A DNA stretch of 64,000 nt from Trichodesmium erythraeum GBRTRLIN201 (GTDB lineage: Bacteria; Cyanobacteriota; Cyanobacteriia; Cyanobacteriales; Microcoleaceae). Below, piece by piece: positions 4,925 through 57,124 of this stretch (positions are counted from its first letter, which is position 1; each line of letters opens with the position of its first letter). Location: positions 139,516 through 203,515 of the forward strand of contig JAGGDU010000046.1 in NCBI GenBank assembly GCA_018457135.1, read 5' to 3'. A program made the translations under genes and the position numbers. The notes beneath the pieces were generated by a model that was not told the origin of the DNA, searched no databases, and saw nothing but the letters and a program-made list of their open reading frames with translations.

Positions 4925-7293
4925 TGGTATGGAGAGGTTAGGGAGTAGGGAAATTAGGTAAAATAGGATTTTTAACAGGATTTTTTAAGTTTGGGGCTTT
5001 TAGGAGTTAACTTACCCCTAGGCTTTCCCGGGAGAGGTAGGGAGGTTGTATTCAATGTCCCTAGAAAGAAGCAAACATCAGAATAATTAAGATTAGCTTA
5101 AACTGAGTTTTGCAAGAAGGTTTTTCAATTTTCGTTAATTACTTAAGTTTTTGAAGTGCTATTAATGCTGTTTTAGCATAACATTAATTCATGGGAATTA
5201 GTGTAATATATCTTGCTTAGTGGGTAAAAAAGTTTTACTTATAACCTTAAATATTCTTGACTTATTAAACTGTGAAGATGGGGAGCATAAGCAACTTCTT
5301 CAGGGAGGCTATACCCGAGTTCAAGTAGACTAGAATGGGTTTTACTTTTACTCTAAAAGGAATTTGTATTTAAAGCTATGGGGGTAGTTTTAATTGTTGC
5401 CAATTTATATTGGTGACAATACTTGTATTCAGGAAGCAAAATTTTAATTATCTTTGCCAAAATGATTATTTTTATAAGTAAATTATAAGTATGTTTTCTA
5501 GCTGTTTTAATTTGAGGTTTTGCATTTAATTTCTCCCCTTTGTTTTATAAATAGGTTTTATAAATAGGTTTGATAAATAGTTTGTATTTTAACTTAGAGC
5601 GATCGCTATATTTTAGATAAATATTTTAGATAAAATTATGCTGGGGCTACAATTTTATTTGGTATCAATTTCCTCAAGTATAATTACAGATAGTATTTTA
5701 ATAATTAAATTATATCTTGTCAAAAAAACTAATGTCTTTTTTGCTAAATTTATGTCATAAATTTTTGATGATTATTCCTAAAATTTTTCAGAGATTGAGG
5801 ATAGAATTTTTGATTTTTTTTCACTTCTATTCTTAGTCTTTTAATGGGATTAATTTGGGAAAAATAAGAGGATTAAAATAGTAATATGTTATCATAAAAA
5901 ACTCATTTTTCTAAAACATTCTAAAAGCAAATATTTTGGTTTTTTTTACAGGATTATTTCATAAAATTATAGATTTTTTTACTGTTGATACTGTTTTATT
6001 TTTTCACAAATAAACAGCTTTAATTTTTGATTTTTATTGAATTTTATCCCAAATTTTTAAGAGTGATTTTATAGTTTATGCCCATTGACTGATACCACTT
6101 TTAACTACTCTCAATATTAGGCATCTTCTTCTCTAATAATTGCTTTTCAAAGCGTAACCCAGATTTATAAAACTAATATCAGTGCGTAAAGATTAATGAT
6201 ATTGGTGTTTATTATTTTTGAGTACAAAGTTTTCTTAAAAACGAATTGCTCTGTGAGAGGAAAATATGATGGGGTAACCCTTACAGTAGCTACAGTTAGA
6301 AAGATAACTTTTTTGAGCTTGATATCGCTAAAAACTTTAGTTAGCAATAGTTATTCCTATAACTTGGCACTGTGAATATCTATTACTTTGATTTTTATGG
6401 GAATAGTAATAAAATTTTGTCTCTTAATTATAAGTAAATATATTATATAAGATTAGACGAAAATTGGCTGGGAAGTTAAATATTATTTTCTTTTCAGAAC
6501 TATTAACTATATTAATTTCAGTTTTTTTACAAAAAAATTATAGTTTTGATACTGTTGACACCAATTAGGTTCTTATTAAATGTTTTAGTTATGTTAGATT
6601 CTGTAATATTAAAATCACTATTCTTTCTCACATTTTGTTTGTGCTGTGATTTTTGATTATAGGTTTACCAAACAATTAGATTTTTTCAATAAAATAATGT
6701 ATGTCTTACCACTAGGCAAATAGGAGATTTGAAAGTTAATTAAAAATTAACTATATTTATTCAAAACTACGGATAAATAGGAATATTATAGCAGTATGAG
6801 TAGTTTAGAAAACTATGTAAATAAGTAACTTAGAGTTCCAAGATATTTGAAGCTTGAGTCTGAGATGAGTTAAAGAGTATAGTCCCTAGTCTTTAGTGAA
6901 AGAGGAAGCTAGCCCCAAACCTTATGCAATTCAATTTTACGGGTAAGTTTGGGTAACTTTAGTAGAGGGCACAGAAATTTATAAATGCTCAAACTCCATC
7001 AGAACTTACTTCTAACTTTTGACTTCCCTCCCCTTACAGAAAAGGTAGCAAGTTCAATTTATTGTCACTAGAGAAAAATTGTATCCTTTGAAACCTCATT
7101 AAATCTCAGATATGTTATTAGCATTAGTTAAGCAACAATAGATATAAATATTCTCTGACAACAAAGACTAGCCCTATTTTTAGGAGGGTTAAAATTAAAT
7201 TACGTGTAGCCCTATAGTAGCTTCCCTACTAATAATTTTTGATTAAGTTTGGGAGCAAATTACAAAATATATAAATAATTCAGAGGTTAAGCC
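4925..7293. other. Long intergenic region (2.4 kb) without recognisable genes
   Basis: Very AT-rich with many stops in all frames. A 60-codon open frame on the minus strand (6165-6347) has no recognisable content and is not called. Contains a short tandem repeat (5542-5580) and isolated GCGATCGC sites. Confidence 0.6.
5542..5580. repeat. 13-bp tandem repeat, three copies
   Basis: Three head-to-tail copies of GTTTTATAAATAG (5542-5554, 5555-5567, 5568-5580). The third differs at one base. It is probably a slippage product in AT-rich spacer. Confidence 0.8.
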
Positions 7294-32686: not shown

Positions 32687-32965
32687 TTAATAGTTGTATT
32701 TAGGAAAAACTTCAGTGTTCCAACATCTTTCTAACCAGTCTACTAATTCTGCCTGAGGAGCAAGAAATTGCTTAATAGTGCTTTGGAGCAGAATAGCATC
32801 GGTGCAGTTGTTGACTTCTACTAATAAATCACCATTGTGAGTACACCAACTATTAATCCTTAGCTCTTGTAAGCGATGGTGAATAAACCAGCGGTCTATT
32901 TGAGAAAGATTCACGATTTTAGTCAGATATTTGGCATGAGGGTTAAAATTATGACTATTAAACAT
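32687..32965 (-). CDS. Small conserved nif-associated hypothetical protein (downstream of nifP)
   Basis: 92 residues. Begins [20 protein letters not shown], with [20 protein letters not shown] and ending FPKYNY. No named domain is recognised. Its start overlaps the nifP stop by 8 bp, so it is almost certainly co-translated with nifP. A small gene in the same position follows nifP in Anabaena-type nif clusters, which supports it being real. Possible roles (regulation of, or partner to, the acetyltransferase) are speculation. Confidence 0.75.
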
Positions 32966-33824
32966 TATTATTTTTCCTTGTCTCGCCTATAAGAGTTTGT
33001 AATTTTTCTTCAAGTTGCTGAATTTTCTCAACTAAAGCACGAGTTGCGGTAGCTTCAGTATCTGGGAATTTTCCATGATCGAGAACTTCAGTCCGTTCGC
33101 TAGATTTTGATACGACTCTACCAGGTATACCAACAACGGTGCAGTCAGAAGGAACATGACGCAATACAATGGAACCAGCACCGATACGAACGTTATTACC
33201 AATATTGATATTTCCTAATACTTTGGCACCAGCACCAACTACAACATTTGTACCAATAGTAGGATGGCGTTTACCAATTTCTTTTCCTGTACCACCAAGA
33301 GTGACACCCTGATAAATTAATGAGTAATCTCCAACAATTGCTGTTTCACCAATAACCACTCCCATACCATGATCTATAAATACTCCCTGTCCAATTTGTG
33401 CTCCTGGGTGAATTTCTATTCCTGTGAAGAATCGTCCGAAATGAGAAATCAATCTTGGAATTAAAGGTATTTTGTGATAGTGCAATTTATGAGCAAGACG
33501 GTACAATAATAAAGCGTGCAAACCTGGATAGCAACATAAGACTTCTATCCAGTTCCGTGCTGCTGGGTCTCGCTCGAAAATTATCTGAAAATCTGTTAAA
33601 ATTGTCTCTATTTCAGGAAATATAAAATATTTGTACCAAAATCTATGAAAACAAGAAGAGGAAGAAAGCTCTCTATTAGATTCTGATATTAGATTTTCTT
33701 GAGAAACTTCAGTCTCTACCGTTGGTTTGTTTTGAGACCTCAAGTTACCTTGGTATTTTTGCAAGGTAGAATTGTGAGTTGTATTAGGTAAGGTGCGGAT
33801 ATTGTCAGTCAGTAAGGTGGTCAT
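32958..33824 (-). CDS. nifP: Serine O-acetyltransferase of the nif cluster (NifP/CysE)
   Basis: 288 residues. A ~65-residue Ser/Asn-rich N-terminal extension of low conservation precedes the CysE helical region ([20 protein letters not shown]) and the left-handed hexapeptide beta-helix ([52 protein letters not shown]). The enzyme makes O-acetylserine from serine and acetyl-CoA. NifP is the copy thought to boost cysteine supply for nitrogenase Fe-S clusters. The His in IDHGMG and the HP pairs typical of the active site are present. It diverges from nifB across a 1.2 kb region with shared repeats, suggesting common control. Confidence 0.9.
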
Positions 33825-34019
33825 TTCATTTATCAGTTATCAGTGGTCAGTTATCGGTATCTGCAATAATAGGGAGGTTTGAGATGTTATTTCTTGCTCA
33901 TGAATCAAATAAAGGATTTCGTATTTAACAAGAATATTTGCTTTTTAATGTTTATATCAAGTCCATGGAAAACTACTGAGAAATATTTATTGCTCAGTGT
34001 TTATTAGATTTATTAGGTT

Positions 34020-34228
34020 TGTACTCAAAGCTTTTAAATCTTGATGGGAAAGGTATTACAGATATGTTTTAAATATATTTTGGGGTATATGTGCTAGTAT
34101 TTTTTGTGGTATGTACAAGTATTTATTAAACGATGTACTAGCATTTTTGTACTCAAGCTTAATACTTCTATTTCAGGAGGTTGCGAGGATTTAAGTAGAG
34201 TTTTCTCCTAAACTTAAACTTGTACTCA
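34020..34228 (-). promoter_or_regulatory. TGAGTACA motif, three copies upstream of nifP
   Basis: On the plus strand the octamer appears as TGTACTCA at 34020-34027, 34148-34155 and 34221-34228, with flanks TT before and A after (TTGTACTCAA in all three). The distance to the nifP ATG is ~200-400 bp. A near copy (TGTACTAG) lies at 34134. Confidence 0.8.
34081..34094 (-). promoter_or_regulatory. TACCCCA motif upstream of nifP
   Basis: On the minus strand the sequence reads GCACATATACCCCA. It differs at 2 of 14 positions from the middle nifB-side copy (ATACATATACCCCA). It lies 257 bp upstream of the nifP start. Confidence 0.7.
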
Positions 34229-34602
34229 ACTTTAGTTTAACTCATAACTCTAGTAAAAATATGGAAAAAAATCTTAAAATTATCTGCTTAATTCTGAAAA
34301 AACTGCTAAGTTAATTACAGAAAGTAAAAACTTGTAGTTGAGGTTTTATAAGGATAAAATAAGTAAGAGTTGGGCAATAGCTTAAAAATTATATGGTTTG
34401 GCGATATGAGACAGGACAGAAAAAGGAGAGCTTGGCCTCAGCTATGAGCTAAATATGCAGGAGCTATATATATTGTTATTGGGTAAGTCCCGGGGTTTAG
34501 TTGTTAATTTAGAATATTTTGAGATATTGTTTGTTCTCAACAGTAGCCAAAAAAAGATATATCGTATACAGTAATAAAAGATTGAGTAAAATAAGTAGTG
34601 TA

Positions 34603-34812
34603 TGAGTACAGAAGTGTAGAGAAAGAAAGGGTAGTAAAAAGAGAGCAAAATAACTAATATATATGACTTATAGCATGAGTACATACACTACTGTACCATT
34701 ACCCCATAAATACATATACCCCACTTAAAAAATACAAGTACCTATACCCCAAAAAAAAAATTTAGATACCTTGAGATAATTGGAATCACTGAATTAGAAG
34801 CATCTGAGTACA
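34603..34812 (+). promoter_or_regulatory. TGAGTACA motif, three copies upstream of nifB
   Basis: Exact copies at 34603-34610, 34676-34683 and 34805-34812, about 200-415 bp upstream of the nifB ATG. The spacings mirror those on the nifP side (span 210 bp versus 209 bp). Confidence 0.8.
34693..34751 (+). promoter_or_regulatory. Three direct copies of a 14-bp TACCCCA motif upstream of nifB
   Basis: GTACCATTACCCCA (34693), ATACATATACCCCA (34710) and GTACCTATACCCCA (34738). The last copy ends 267 bp before the nifB ATG, close to the 257 bp seen for the single nifP copy. Confidence 0.8.
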
Positions 34813-35017
34813 AAATTAATTATCATAATAAACACTAACCACGATTTTTCAAAAGGTAAGGCTCAAACCCGGTGATATAAGAAGTATAACACTATAACGC
34901 CGGACACCTAATTCACTGATAGAACACTGCCAATGTTCAAGTCAATAGAAAAAGTGTATCGACGCGAGTAATCCGTCACCCACGGCGATAGCTAGTATAA
35001 TAAGAGTGGAAACCTAG

Positions 35018-36487
35018 ATGTTACAGCCAACAGAAGTATCTTCCCAACCAACAGTAAACAGCTTCGCAAACATGATAGCAACTCCAGAAAAACAACCTGG
35101 TGATTGCGCGTCAAAGGGTTGCGGAAGCAACGAACAAGAAGTTGCCTCCAGTATTCAAGAGCGCATTGCTAATCATCCTTGTTATAGTCAAGAAGCGCAT
35201 CACCACTATGCAAGGATGCACGCTCCAGTTGCACCAGCTTGCAACATTCAATGTAATTTCTGTAACCGGAAATACGACTGTGCCAATGAAAGTCGTCCCG
35301 GTGTAGTCAGTGAACTGCTAACTCCTGAAGAAGCAGCTCACAAAGCTCTAGTAATTGCTGGAAAAATTCCGCAAATGACAGTGATGGGTATTGCTGGCCC
35401 TGGCGACCCATTAGCGAACCCAGAAAAAACATTTCGTACTTTTGAGCTTGTAGCTGAGAAAGCTCCAGATATCAAGCTTTGCTTGTCAACCAATGGTCTA
35501 GCTTTACCTGATCATATAGATCGGATTAAAGCATTAAATATTGACCACGTTACTATAACAATTAATATGGTTGACCCTGAAATCGGGGTAAAGATTTATC
35601 CTTGGGTTCACTACAAACGGAAGCGCTATAGAGGAATTGAGGGAGTCAAAATTCTGCATCAAAAGCAAATGGAAGCTTTAGACTTGCTCAGAGAAGCTGA
35701 TGTTCTCTGCAAAGTTAACTCAGTGATGATTCCTGGTATTAATGACAAACACCTAGAAGAAGTTAATAGGGTTGTTCGCTCGAAGGGTGCATTCATTCAT
35801 AACATTATGCCTCTAATTTCTTCACCAGAACATGGTACTTACTTCGGTTTAAATGGTCAACGTGGCCCAACTACTGAAGAACTAAAAGAATTACAAGACA
35901 AATGTGATGTTGGTGGTATGAACATGATGCGTCACTGTCGTCAATGTCGTGCAGATGCAGTTGGTCTTTTAGGTGAAGACCGTAGTAAGGAATTCACAAA
36001 AGAAGCGATCATGGAAATGACTCCAGAGTATGATCTACAAAAGCGCAAAGAATTTCATGCTGGCATTGAAGGTTTCCGCAGTAAACTAGTAAAGGCTAAG
36101 GCTTCAGGTCAAACTACTGAAAAAGTTGCCGAAGCTGGTCCGCCCATACTACTGGCAGTAGCAAGTAAGGGTAACGGATTAGTTAATCAGCACTTTGGTC
36201 ATGCTAAAGAGTTTATGATCTATGAAGTAGATGGTGTGAAAGCTAGATTTATTGCTCACCGGAAAGTTGACCACTATTGTCTAGGTGGTTATGGTGAAGA
36301 AGGAAGTCTGGAGAATATCATCAAGGCAATTTCTGATTGTAAAGCTGTTTTTGTTTCTAAAATTGGTGAGAGTCCAAAGGAAAAGGTACGCAATGCAGGA
36401 CTAAAGGTGGTTGAAACTTACGATGTAATTGAAACAGTTGCTTTAGATTTCTATAAGCAATTCATCGGACAACTACAAGTAGCATAG
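35018..36487 (+). CDS. nifB: FeMo-cofactor biosynthesis radical-SAM protein NifB
   Basis: 489 residues. The radical-SAM motif CNIQCNFC gives cysteines at 75, 79 and 82, followed by [16 protein letters not shown]. The SAM domain spans ~65-330, and a C-terminal NifX/NafY-like domain (~370-480: [32 protein letters not shown]) is fused to it. NifB fuses [4Fe-4S] units with a SAM-derived carbide to make NifB-co, the FeMo-co precursor. An N-terminal Cys cluster ([10 protein letters not shown]) is also present. It heads the plus-strand nif arm and diverges from nifP. The ATG at 35018 has GAGTGGA upstream. Confidence 0.97.
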
Positions 36488-44575: not shown

Positions 44576-47386
44576 ATGGCTATGATAACCCCAGGCAAAG
44601 TTGCCGAACTTTTAAATGAGCCAGGTTGCGAACACAACCATCAAAAAAATAACGGAGATAAAAAACAGAAAGGCTGCCAGCAACAAGCAGCACCCGGAGC
44701 TGCTCAAGGGGGTTGTGCCTTTGATGGTGCTAGTATTGCTCTAGTTCCAATTACAGATGCAGCTCACCTGGTTCACGGTCCTTTAGGTTGTTCTGGTAAC
44801 TCCTGGGGAGCTCGTGGAAGTCTTTCCTCCAGTTCCCATCTATACAAAATGGGTTTCACCACTGATATGGGTGAAAATGACATTATTATGGGCGGAGAGA
44901 AAAAATTATTGAGGGCGATCGCTGAATTAAAAAAACGTTATCAACCTCCTGCTATATTTGTCTATGCCACCTGTGTTACTGCTTTAATTGGAGATGACCT
45001 AGAAACAGTTTGTAAAGTCGCTACTAAAAAATTAGAAATTCCGGTCATTCCCGTTAACTCTCCTGGTTTCATCGGTAGCAAAAATCTGGGTAACCGGGTT
45101 GGCGCAGAAGCATTATTAGACCATGTAGTAGGTACGGCAGAACCTGAATTTACTACACCTTATGACATAAACCTAATTGGGGAATATAATATTGCTGGGG
45201 AAATGTGGGCAATGTTACCCCTGTTTGAAAAAGTTGGCATTCGGGTATTGTCAAAAATCACGGGAGATGCTACTTACAAAGAAGTTTGTTATGCCCACCG
45301 TGCCAAACTCAACGTTATGATCTGCTCTAAAGCTATGATCAATATGGCACGAAAAATGGAGGAAGAATATGGCATTCCTTACATTGAAGAATCATTTTAT
45401 GGTGTTGCTGATATTAATAACTGCCTCCGGAATATTGCTGCCAAAATTGGGGATGCTGGCCTGCAAGAACGGACAGAAAAACTGATCGCTGAAGAAACAA
45501 CTATTCTTGAAGAAATATTAGAACCCTATCGCCAACGTCTAAAAGGTAAAAAAGTTGTACTCTACACAGGTGGGGTGAAAAGTTGGTCTATTATTTCGGC
45601 AGCTAAAGATTTAGAGATGGATGTGGTTGCTACTAGCACCAAGAAAAGTACAGAAGAGGATAAGGCTAAAATCAAAAAGTTGCTCGGTAAAGATGGTATT
45701 TTGCTAGAAAAAGGTAATGCCGAAATACTCTTAAAAGTAATTGCCGAGACTAAAGCTGATATGCTTATAGCAGGTGGTCGTAACCAGTATACTGCTCTCA
45801 AAGCCCGAATTCCCTTTTTACACATTAACCAAGAACGTCATCATCCCTACGCCGGATATCATGGGATGATAGAAATGGCTAAAGAATTAGATGAAGCTCT
45901 CTATAGTCCGGTTTGGGAACAGGTGAGACAACCGGCACCTTGGTTAGAGGCATGTCAGTTAGATGATGTTTTGGCTGTTGAAACTTTACCAAGTTTAACT
46001 AATATTCCACCAACAACAGTCAATTTTCATAAACAATCATTATCCACAAATCCTCTGAAACTCAGTCAACCTTTGGGTGCGGCTTTAGCATACTTAGGAA
46101 TTAATGGGATGATGCCAATGTTCCACGGTACTCAAGGTTGTACTGCTTTTGCTAAGGTATTATTGGTGAATCACTTCCAGGAAGCTATTCCCTTGTCTAC
46201 TACTGCTATGAGTGAAGTGACAACTATTTTGGGAGGGGAGGATAACATTGATAAAGCGCTGCTGACTCAGCTTGAGAAGTCAAAACCAAAGGTAATTGGT
46301 TTGTTGACTACTGGTTTAACTGAAACCAGAGGGGATGACATGGAGCGTATTCTTAAGAAATTTAGGGAAGAGCATCCAGAATTAGATGGGTTCCCCATAT
46401 TAAATGTTTCTAGTCCAGATTATAAGGGTTCTGCTCAGGACGGTTTTGCTACTACAGTAGAATGTATAGTAGGTTATGATTATGGGGAGCCTATTCCCAA
46501 AGAAATTAAAAAACCTTTGATTACAATTTTAGCTGGTTCTTGTCTTGCTCCTGGAGATGTCCAGGAAATCAAGGATATTGTAGAAGATTTTGGGTTCATT
46601 CCAATAGTTGTACCGGACTTATCTCAGTCTTTGGACGGGCATTTAATTGATGATATTTATAGTGCTACAAGCTCAGGTGGTACCACAATAGAGGATTTGC
46701 GTAATTTACGTCACTCATCTTTCACCTTTGCTATTGGGGAAAGTATGCGAAATGCAGCTATAATTTTGCAAGAAAAATTTGGTACTCAATATCAAGTGTT
46801 CTCTCGGTTGACTGGTTTGGGTGCTGTAGATAGTTTCATGTTAAAATTGTCTCAGCTAATTGTATCTCGAATTGATCCTCATCTTGACAAAGGCTGTGAA
46901 GTTCCTGAGAAATACCTACGCCAACGCCGTCAGTTACAGGATGCGATGTTGGATACTCACTTCTATTTTGGGCATAAGCAAGTATCTATTGCCCTGGAAC
47001 CAGATTTACTTTGGGCAACAAGTTGGTTTGTGCGAGAAATGGGGGGAGATATTCATTCTGCTGTCACAACTACGCGATCGCCGTTACTTGAAAAATTACC
47101 TACGGAAAATGTGATAGTTGGGGACTTGGGAGATTTAGAAGAAGTGGCAGCAGGTTCGGATTTACTAATTACCAATTCTCGTGGTAAGATAATATCTGAG
47201 AAGTTAAATATTGATCTCTATCGGATGGGAATGCCAATTTACGATCGCCTTGGTAATGGTCAACGTTGTTCTGTTGGTTACCGTGGTACAATGAATTTAT
47301 TATTTGATATTGGTAATATTTTCCTAGAGCAAGAGGAATCAAAAATTCACACCAATGATTATTCATTATTAAGTACTCAGGCATAA
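44576..47386 (+). CDS. nifEN: Fused FeMo-cofactor scaffold NifEN
   Basis: 936 residues in one frame. The NifE half is ~1-455: the N-terminal Cys/His-rich tail is followed by GGCAFDGASIALVPITDAAH, GPLGCSGNSWGARGS and YATCVTALIGDDL. A ~35-residue linker (~455-490) precedes the NifN half (KLSQPLGAALAYLGING, FHGTQGCTAFAKVLLVNHF, TTGLTETRGDDM). NifEN is the heterotetrameric scaffold on which NifB-co is matured to FeMo-co. Most cyanobacteria encode nifE and nifN separately; a comparable fusion is known in vnfEN of Anabaena variabilis. No stop or frameshift separates the halves. It follows a terminator and precedes nifX. Confidence 0.95.
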   Translation: MAMITPGKVAELLNEPGCEHNHQKNNGDKKQKGCQQQAAPGAAQGGCAFDGASIALVPITDAAHLVHGPLGCSGNSWGARGSLSSSSHLYKMGFTTDMGENDIIMGGEKKLLRAIAELKKRYQPPAIFVYATCVTALIGDDLETVCKVATKKLEIPVIPVNSPGFIGSKNLGNRVGAEALLDHVVGTAEPEFTTPYDINLIGEYNIAGEMWAMLPLFEKVGIRVLSKITGDATYKEVCYAHRAKLNVMICSKAMINMARKMEEEYGIPYIEESFYGVADINNCLRNIAAKIGDAGLQERTEKLIAEETTILEEILEPYRQRLKGKKVVLYTGGVKSWSIISAAKDLEMDVVATSTKKSTEEDKAKIKKLLGKDGILLEKGNAEILLKVIAETKADMLIAGGRNQYTALKARIPFLHINQERHHPYAGYHGMIEMAKELDEALYSPVWEQVRQPAPWLEACQLDDVLAVETLPSLTNIPPTTVNFHKQSLSTNPLKLSQPLGAALAYLGINGMMPMFHGTQGCTAFAKVLLVNHFQEAIPLSTTAMSEVTTILGGEDNIDKALLTQLEKSKPKVIGLLTTGLTETRGDDMERILKKFREEHPELDGFPILNVSSPDYKGSAQDGFATTVECIVGYDYGEPIPKEIKKPLITILAGSCLAPGDVQEIKDIVEDFGFIPIVVPDLSQSLDGHLIDDIYSATSSGGTTIEDLRNLRHSSFTFAIGESMRNAAIILQEKFGTQYQVFSRLTGLGAVDSFMLKLSQLIVSRIDPHLDKGCEVPEKYLRQRRQLQDAMLDTHFYFGHKQVSIALEPDLLWATSWFVREMGGDIHSAVTTTRSPLLEKLPTENVIVGDLGDLEEVAAGSDLLITNSRGKIISEKLNIDLYRMGMPIYDRLGNGQRCSVGYRGTMNLLFDIGNIFLEQEESKIHTNDYSLLSTQA

Positions 47387-54532: not shown

Positions 54533-55237
54533 AAAATTCTCACAAATATAATCCCAATGCTGTCAGAACTTACGTCAAGCATTTGTATATTCTACATTTT
54601 GTTTTTTGTAGAAGTAATTCATATAAACCTTTGCCATGAAAAACAGAAATTATCCCTACAGGTAGCACTGTGGAATATTCCTAGCTCTGGAAAATCATTA
54701 ATTTTATTGTATCATCGTAAAATTTGGTAATGCATATCTAAATATAGAAACCGGGTTTATATGTGTAGATATTATTTTTATAATATATCTAATATAAATC
54801 CGGTTTTTTATCAGTCTTCAAAGTTACTGAATTTGAGAACACTTATACTATCAGTTTCAATAGTAACGACTGCTATTAGAGTTAATTATATCATATTCTG
54901 GTAATTAATTATAAATAAAATTATTCTTTTGAGACCCTTCACTGAATGTCCCTATTTTTTTTTCTATAGGAATAAAATACTCCTCTATCCTGTAGTAAAA
55001 AAAACAGTTTATTGAATGAAAAAAGATAGAAAATAAACCTAGTTGTAGAAAGTAACTCCAGATGAAGACTAAAACTATTACGGAAATAATTGCAATGCAC
55101 CAGTATCAAAATAACTACCTTGATAAAATTTATTGACATCAAATATTTTCATTTTTCCAGAAAATTAATACACAGGAAACATCAACCAAGGGTTGTTTAT
55201 CACACTTAAAAACTACCCTTTATTAAAAATAATAATA
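54533..55237. other. Intergenic region before modBC
   Basis: Mostly AT-rich. Contains the inverted repeat at 54748-54806. No gene recognised. The 67-codon minus-strand frame at 54939-55142 is not convincing. Confidence 0.45.
54748..54806. repeat. Inverted repeat with AAACCGGGTTT core
   Basis: AAACCGGGTTTATAT (54748-54762) pairs with ATATAAATCCGGTTT (54792-54806) with one mismatch, followed by a T-run (to 54809). It could end transcription from the modA/mosB remnant side. The core resembles the arms at 13582-13681. Confidence 0.65.
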
Positions 55238-57124
55238 ATGAACTTAGACCTCTCCCCTGCTTGGATTTCCCTAAAAACTGCAACAGTAACTACAATAATC
55301 ACCTTTTTTCTCGGCATTGCTACAGCACGTTGGATGCTAGGATATCGTGGTAAAAACAAAGGACTAATTGATGCTATATTAACATCCCCTCTAGTATTGC
55401 CTCCAACCGTCACAGGTTTTCTCTTACTATTATTGCTAGGTAGAAACGGTCCTGTTGGTCATTTACTCTCCTCAATGGGGATAACATTAATTTTTACTTG
55501 GCCTGCCACCGTAATAGCAGCTACAGTAGTCTCATTTCCCCTAATGTACAAAACATCACTAGCAGCTTTTAATCAAATTGATACCAGTTTGCTTGCTTGT
55601 GCCAGAACTTTAGGAGCTTCAGAATGGCGAGTATTTTGGCGAATTTTGTTACCTTTAGCAAAACCAGGAATAATTGCCGGAGCATTATTAGCTTTTGCTA
55701 GATCCCTGGGGGAGTTTGGGGCAACTTTAATGCTAGCAGGAAGCATTCCCGGCAAAACTGAAACTATTCCCATCGCTATTTTCTTTGCTTCTGAAGGTGG
55801 AAATATGAAAGAAGCACTTATTTGGGTGTTAGTCATTTTAGCCATATCTCTTGGGGTGATAACTGGTGTCAACTTTTGGTCAGAATCTCAAATCAAAAAG
55901 CGCATAGTACAAAAAACAGAAAAGCAAATTATTGATGTGCGCTCTATAACTCAAGTTCAACCTCAACCTTTTCTACTCAACTCCCGCAGCCAGTCACAAA
56001 GTCTATTTGTAGATATTCAAAAGCAACTTCACGGATTCATGTTAGATGTTGCTTTCAGCGCTAATAACAAACCAGTGGGGTTATTAGGAGGTTCTGGTGC
56101 TGGCAAAAGTATGATTCTGCGTTGCATTGCTGGCTTAGAAAATCCCACTCAAGGACGCATAGTTTTAAATGGGCGAGTATTATTCGATGCAAAACTGAAA
56201 ATTGATTTACCTAGTCGCGATCGCCATGTTGGTTATCTATTTCAAAACTACGCTCTCTTTCCCCATCTAACTGTAGCTGAAAATATTGCTTTTGGTTTGC
56301 CCAAAGGTTTGTCATCAAGTGATATTCAACAAAAAGTACAAACCCATCTTTTAGCAGTGCAGTTACCAGGATATGAAAAACGATATCCTGGAGAACTTTC
56401 CGGAGGTCAGCAACAAAGGGTAGCTTTAGCACGAGCATTAGCAAGTCAACCAGAAGCTTTATTATTAGATGAAGCTTTTTCCGCATTAGATACCCACCTA
56501 AGACATCAAATTGAAACATTAGTTCTTAGCACCCTAGAAAATTATCAAGGAGTAACTTTACTAGTAACTCACAACTTAGAGGAAGCTTATCGCATTTGCC
56601 AACATCTATTAGTAGTTGATGATGGACTTATTCTTACTCATGGCCTCAAACAAGACATTTTTGAATATTCTACCAGTGTGAGAGTTGCTCAATTAACTGG
56701 TTGTAAGAACTTTTCTCAAGTCTTAATTATAGACGATCATAAAATTGAAGCTGTTGAATGGGGATGTAGTCTTGAGGTCGCCGAACCCATTCCAGAGTAT
56801 TTCTCTCACGTTGGTATTCGTGCTCACCAGATTACTTTTATGGAGGAAGCAAACCAACCGAATACTTTCCCCTGTTGGTTAGCAGCAACCAGTGAAACTC
56901 AGCATCGGATGACTTTATATTTGAAATTATATCAACCTGCACTAAATTCTTTTGACTATCATTTGCAAGCAGAAGTATTCAAGGAAAAATGGTATCAAAT
57001 TAAAAATAATCCTTTTCCTTGGCAGGTTTGTCTGCACCCTTTCCGTTTATTGTTACTAGAAGATACCTATCGAAATCATATGTTAACTGGTACATTGAAG
57101 TCTTCCCAGAAATTGTTCTGGTAA
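55238..57124 (+). CDS. modBC: Fused molybdate transporter permease-ATPase ModBC
   Basis: 628 residues from the ATG at 55238 (MNLDLSPAWISLKTATVTTI); a TTG at 55193 would add 15. ModB occupies ~1-225: hydrophobic helices and the EAA-like loop ACARTLGASEWRVFWRILLP. ModC follows: Walker A GGSGAGKSMILRC (~283-290), Q-loop FQNYALFPHLTVAENIAFG, signature LSGGQQQRVALARAL (~386) and Walker B ALLLDEAFSAL. The C-terminal ~150 residues form a regulatory region without a clear Mop repeat. The fusion is the usual cyanobacterial form. It pairs with modA, 1.16 kb upstream. Confidence 0.93.
   Translation: MNLDLSPAWISLKTATVTTIITFFLGIATARWMLGYRGKNKGLIDAILTSPLVLPPTVTGFLLLLLLGRNGPVGHLLSSMGITLIFTWPATVIAATVVSFPLMYKTSLAAFNQIDTSLLACARTLGASEWRVFWRILLPLAKPGIIAGALLAFARSLGEFGATLMLAGSIPGKTETIPIAIFFASEGGNMKEALIWVLVILAISLGVITGVNFWSESQIKKRIVQKTEKQIIDVRSITQVQPQPFLLNSRSQSQSLFVDIQKQLHGFMLDVAFSANNKPVGLLGGSGAGKSMILRCIAGLENPTQGRIVLNGRVLFDAKLKIDLPSRDRHVGYLFQNYALFPHLTVAENIAFGLPKGLSSSDIQQKVQTHLLAVQLPGYEKRYPGELSGGQQQRVALARALASQPEALLLDEAFSALDTHLRHQIETLVLSTLENYQGVTLLVTHNLEEAYRICQHLLVVDDGLILTHGLKQDIFEYSTSVRVAQLTGCKNFSQVLIIDDHKIEAVEWGCSLEVAEPIPEYFSHVGIRAHQITFMEEANQPNTFPCWLAATSETQHRMTLYLKLYQPALNSFDYHLQAEVFKEKWYQIKNNPFPWQVCLHPFRLLLLEDTYRNHMLTGTLKSSQKLFW

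Follow-up and report, generated by a model that had tools for sequence, protein, structure and literature searches.

Comparison with described CnfR-dependent promoters

CnfR is the master activator of nitrogen fixation in cyanobacteria and has been a component in attempts to transfer nif clusters to non-fixing phototrophs. For A. variabilis ATCC 29413 one study describes three TGAGTATA motifs together with an extended -10 element upstream of nifB1 and nifB2 (PMC4284476). Three conserved cis elements upstream of these two genes are thought to bind CnfR, and the loss of one or two of them cuts the expression of nifB1 by 50-75%, as stated in a paper from 2021 (PMC8510180). In L. boryana, CnfR-dependent divergent nifB/nifP promoters containing motifs I-IX have been reported (PMC5943405), the element going back to Tsujimoto et al. 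2016 as cited in PMC5943405 and PMC8510180. In Nodularia spumigena CCY9414 a transcription start site has been mapped 296 nt upstream of nifB (PMC3610870).

The window analysed here, which is the whole stretch of 64,000 nucleotides from Trichodesmium erythraeum GBRTRLIN201, resembles L. boryana in that nifP and nifB are divergent, a multi-motif element precedes both genes, CnfR is encoded, and the host is a non-heterocystous filamentous species. However, cnfR is part of the nif cluster in L. boryana, whereas it is found on another contig here. Besides the octamers described below, the nifP and nifB halves of the locus have further blocks in common. In the 2016 study of Tsujimoto and coworkers the element is reportedly located 76 bp ahead of the nifB and nifP start sites. 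With A. variabilis the locus has three TGAGTAYA words before nifB in common, along with another conserved motif and an extended -10 element. The printed word of A. variabilis is TGAGTATA but here it is TGAGTACA (seven of eight letters), and the relatives mostly have the C. In addition, the module of A. variabilis has been described for nifB, and a single region serves nifZ2 and nifB2 there, whereas here one complete module precedes nifP and another one precedes nifB. Three elements before nifB and also before nifP, the octamer word, an adjacent predicted extended -10 without an obvious -35 element, and an encoded CnfR are thus all found in this genome. CnfR control regions are known as a kind, and the Trichodesmium locus is very likely a further member of it.

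Arrangement of the sites between nifP and nifB

The six copies of TGAGTACA listed in a preliminary description of this DNA were all recovered as exact matches (Table 1). Every copy reads toward its own gene, as had been stated, and the two sets, given as about 210 bp long, span 209 and 210 bp. Only one other copy had been noted in the window, at 6219, which is present and solitary; a second one at 32838 had been overlooked. This stray copy is located within a small ORF of 92 aa (32687-32965, minus strand). The ORF directly follows nifP, is kept there across Nostocales and others, and has no Pfam match. The window contains eight copies compared to 1.8 +/- 1.3 in shuffled sequences, and none of 100 shuffles reached eight, which agrees with the claim of a density far above chance. 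The genome-wide count, which had been proposed as a check, resulted in 151 copies in 7.22 Mb (241 contigs), or one per 47.8 kb. With one copy per 132 bp the nifP-nifB spacer is 362-fold denser than the whole genome, and TGAGTAYA pairs at both spacings are present nowhere else in it. A literature search for TGAGTACA in combination with nif returned nothing relevant.

Table 1. Features of the nifP and nifB promoter regions, with positions in the window.
Feature	Position	Strand	Basis
nifP, serine acetyltransferase-like with hexapeptide repeats, at the head of the leftward unit	32958..33824	-	Pfam PF00132
nifP predicted extended -10, TGATATAAA, 68 bp from site 3 start	33951..33959	-	conserved offset
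nifP module TAATAAACACT, 21 bp from site 3 start	33996..34006	-	half alignment
nifP module site 3, TGAGTACA, 128 bp past site 2	34020..34027	-	match, spacing
nifP module, block of 49 bp within the site 2-3 spacer, including AAAAAATAC and TATACCCCAAAA	34080..34128	-	half alignment
nifP module site 2, TGAGTACA, 73 bp past site 1	34148..34155	-	match, spacing
nifP module site 1, TGAGTACA	34221..34228	-	exact match
nifB module site 1, TGAGTACA	34603..34610	+	exact match; kept in relatives
nifB module site 2, TGAGTACA, 73 bp past site 1	34676..34683	+	match, spacing, relatives
nifB module, block of 49 bp within the site 2-3 spacer, ATAAATAC..AAAAAATAC..TATACCCCAAAA	34706..34754	+	alignment of nifB and nifP halves, six genomes
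nifB module site 3, TGAGTACA, 129 bp past site 2	34805..34812	+	match, spacing, relatives
nifB module TAATAAACACT, 21 bp from site 3 start	34826..34836	+	identical and at equal distance in the nifP module
nifB predicted extended -10, TGATATAAG, 68 bp from site 3 start	34873..34881	+	offset conserved across triplets
nifB, at the head of the rightward nif cluster	35018..36487	+	Radical_SAM, Nitro_FeMo-Co; TIGR01290

The name nifP was assigned by position and literature. In each module the three sites are in direct orientation, and the gaps are nearly identical (73/128 bp for nifP, 73/129 bp for nifB). Behind site 3 there is a TAAT/AATAAACACT stretch, and in both modules an extended -10 of the form TGATATAA begins 68 bp from the start of this site. 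By eye, neither the nifP nor the nifB promoter has an obvious -35 element, and TTGACA is absent at the -35 distance. Transcription would be expected to start near 34888-34893 (plus strand) for nifB and near 33939-33944 (minus strand) for nifP.

Two further ORFs in the window seem to be products of gene fusions. At 44576-47386 nifE and nifN are apparently fused into an ORF of 936 aa with two Oxidored_nitro domains. The other ORF, of 643 aa (55193-57124), combines a molybdate-type ABC permease with its ATPase (modBC) and is located downstream from a modA-like gene (53248).

Distribution of the triplet in cyanobacteria

The strict triplet was found at 70 places in 46 of 386 cyanobacterial genomes, while the same pattern written backwards, which served as control, gave no triplet in any of them. 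NifB is encoded in 72 and a CnfR homologue in 73 of the 386 genomes. All 46 genomes with a triplet have both nifB and CnfR, and the triplet is missing from all 314 genomes that lack nifB; the hypergeometric chance of such a confinement to nifB genomes is about 3e-40 if relatedness is ignored. Most triplets precede nifB (35 places) or nifP (30 places), and one is located before the gene that follows a lost nifP. Three of the remaining places are before another operon, and the last one, on contig C3 of genome G105, was discarded as a coding tandem repeat.

Degenerate forms extend this distribution. With gaps of 60-94 and 100-144 bp permitted and at most three mismatches in total, a triplet is present upstream of nifB in 71 of 81 loci, which comprise the window and NifB relatives drawn from 80 named cyanobacterial contigs. 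Another 25 loci from 24 nifB-bearing genomes were searched, most of which do not have a strict triplet by nifB, and 19 of them contain a degenerate triplet which was not equalled in any of 40 shuffles. The sites are also conserved in the close relatives, where the preliminary description had expected its reading to fail if it were wrong. The distance from site 3 to the extended -10 is 66-69 bp in nearly all of the 112 distinct triplets, and exactly 68 bp in 86 of these. Placed on genome G284, which probably belongs to this strain of N. spumigena, the mapped transcription start site of nifB is 88 bp past the start of site 3 and about 12 bp past the predicted -10.

CnfR as probable reader of the sites

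The genome encodes one intact CnfR of 530 aa (G000:C30:48636-50225), on contig C30, whereas the nif cluster is on contig C46. Its N-terminus contains ferredoxin-like Cys motifs, with ferredoxins as best PDB matches, and an XRE DNA-binding domain (HTH_3, residues 479-514) is located at the C-terminus. The suggestion that one regulator controls both nifP and nifB is best explained by CnfR, given the element known from the literature and the phylum-wide co-occurrence of the triplet with nifB, nifP, and CnfR. The six sites are therefore probably two CnfR modules to which CnfR binds directly, as judged from sequence comparison.

Other genomes contain partial CnfR-like proteins. In the nif-bearing genome G129 only the C-terminal half (residues 270-528) is matched, about 2 kb from the nifP element (G129:C6:715767-716546), and this cnfR may be broken or misassembled. 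The members of one family (G002, G066, G298, and G207) encode a CnfR-like protein that matches only residues ~85-444 and does not have the ferredoxin and helix-turn-helix parts. In G002 a partial radical SAM protein resembling NifB is encoded at a distance of about 15 kb from it (G002:C1:3392461 and 3407668), which is likewise the case in G066 and G298, and no triplet is present. This family possibly represents a separate system built on a CnfR core.

In another reading the triplet is a nif-specific operator on which CnfR has only an indirect effect, and the factor that binds would be, for example, ChlR, a nif-linked sigma factor, or some unknown protein. CnfR co-occurs with the triplet exactly as the nif genes do, and in this respect it is therefore indistinguishable from any other factor that tracks nif. 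Direct binding by CnfR is also only "thought to be" the case in the 2021 paper (PMC8510180). However, CnfR together with a nif fragment is enough for the production of nif proteins in Synechocystis 6803, which is devoid of nif genes (PMC5943405), so that no further diazotroph-specific protein is needed, and CnfR itself carries an XRE DNA-binding domain. Thus, a different factor seems unlikely to be the reader of the sites.

Much less can be said for the global nitrogen regulator NtcA. The nif genes are nitrogen-controlled, as are NtcA-activated promoters of cyanobacteria, and GTAC resembles the half-sites of NtcA. NtcA sites have the consensus GTAN8TAC and are centred near -41.5, but this consensus is absent from 33600-35100, and instead of a single palindrome there are three non-palindromic direct repeats with fixed long spacing over about 210 bp. 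In addition, NtcA occurs in all cyanobacteria according to PMC3898017, whereas triplets are found only in genomes with nif genes. An NtcA site was rejected because of the missing consensus and this phyletic confinement, and binding of NtcA to the region is very improbable.

Two promoter modules instead of one symmetric unit

The preliminary description had presented the six copies as a symmetric layout. It is true that two triplets face each other as mirror images. They do not form a single functional unit, however, as the distance between them varies among the relatives. In Nostocales, nifP and nifB are kilobases apart or on separate contigs, and each gene has its own triplet. A single palindromic unit across both genes was thus ruled out by the variable distance and by the distant location of nifP and nifB in many genomes. 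Because each triplet faces its own gene, has nearly identical spacing, and is followed by its own extended -10, the region very likely contains two independent and divergent copies of a nif promoter module that responds to CnfR, of which nifP and nifB have one each.

Alternatively, the symmetry might be the remnant of a recent inverted duplication of the promoter, in which the repeats themselves have no function. Both halves can indeed be aligned end to end in the same order. However, in six Trichodesmium/Okeania-type genomes the orthologous halves are 75-93% identical to each other, compared to 61-70% between nifB and nifP halves, which rules out a recent duplication as well as concerted evolution. 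Only the shared words and spacings are retained between the nifB and nifP halves, while the flanks have diverged; the halves are therefore independent modules with the same grammar and neither a fresh duplication nor a palindrome. Words and spacings are also retained in deeply diverged cyanobacteria, in which the promoters are often kilobases apart, and a functionless duplicate is as implausible as an NtcA site. Finally, chance clustering of an AT-rich 8-mer, which the 69% A+T content of the spacer might favour, is refuted by the Poisson probability of ~3e-14 for six copies in 793 bp (~3e-10 when corrected for all windows of the same size) and by the empty backwards control, and can be dismissed for all practical purposes.

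Spacing of the sites and a possible mode of binding

In same-strand pairs, the distance between sites 1 and 2 is 70-75 bp, with a few cases at 80-84 bp. The distances between sites 2 and 3 fall into two classes only, 114-119 and 125-129 bp, with none at 120-124 bp, and the two classes are about one helical turn apart. Mapped onto the NifB tree, the class has switched at least five times. Among the nearest relatives, this spacer shows separate deletions of ~10-11 bp, in nifP of Okeania SIO2B3/SIO3B5 and in nifB of Microcoleaceae MO_207.B10. With the four spacer clusters, no significant absolute helical phase was obtained (P = 0.13), and the best-fit period is 9.05 or 10.65 depending on the weighting. 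Therefore, only the one-turn step between the classes is claimed here. This step suggests that the sites face the same way, and thus that those of a CnfR module share one face of the DNA. A description of the one-turn spacing rule for sites 2 and 3 was not found in the open literature.

The following mode of action is likely. When oxygen is low and nitrogen is short, CnfR with its N-terminal 2x[4Fe-4S] ferredoxin-like part and its C-terminal XRE helix-turn-helix would occupy the sites. The CnfR molecules would then share one side of the helix and would jointly wrap or loop the ~200 bp, and they would either bring RNA polymerase to the extended -10 or remodel it there.

A third candidate target operon in heterocyst formers

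In Nostocales, the triplet is also found before an operon encoding a membrane protein of ~137 aa, proteins of 87, 103, and 111 aa, a luciferase-like monooxygenase (PF00296), and a protein of 123 aa. With 0-3 mismatches it is present in 29 of 30 loci of heterocyst formers, mostly with gaps of 70-74/116 bp. The observation refers to the loci L173-L202 (e.g. L173:505-700 and L183:139-332), L129, L132, and L133. The operon is often located 10-15 kb from cnfR. Beside homologues of the 87-aa protein outside Nostocales the element was not found among those checked, including the one in the Trichodesmium genome itself (G000:C179). Late induction, like that of nif, has been reported for the patB-alr2524 region of Anabaena 7120 (PMC3141674), and this region appears to hold the same operon. 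From the triplets we infer that CnfR may control the luciferase-like operon in heterocyst formers. As a third target it was not found described in the open literature. Taken as one proposal, a helically phased three-site CnfR module, whose spacers change only by about a whole turn and which controls a non-nif luciferase-like operon in heterocyst formers in addition, has in our opinion an even chance of being correct.

Significance

The grammar of the module consists of three direct sites separated by 70-75 and then by 114-119 or 125-129 bp, followed by 68 bp to an extended -10. Because such a promoter grammar is precise and extends across the phylum, targets of CnfR can be found by sequence. 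It yields clean predictions on the binding mode of CnfR, and it indicates a target operon outside nif in heterocyst formers. If this is true, the CnfR regulon would be extended to a new function in nitrogen-fixing cells.
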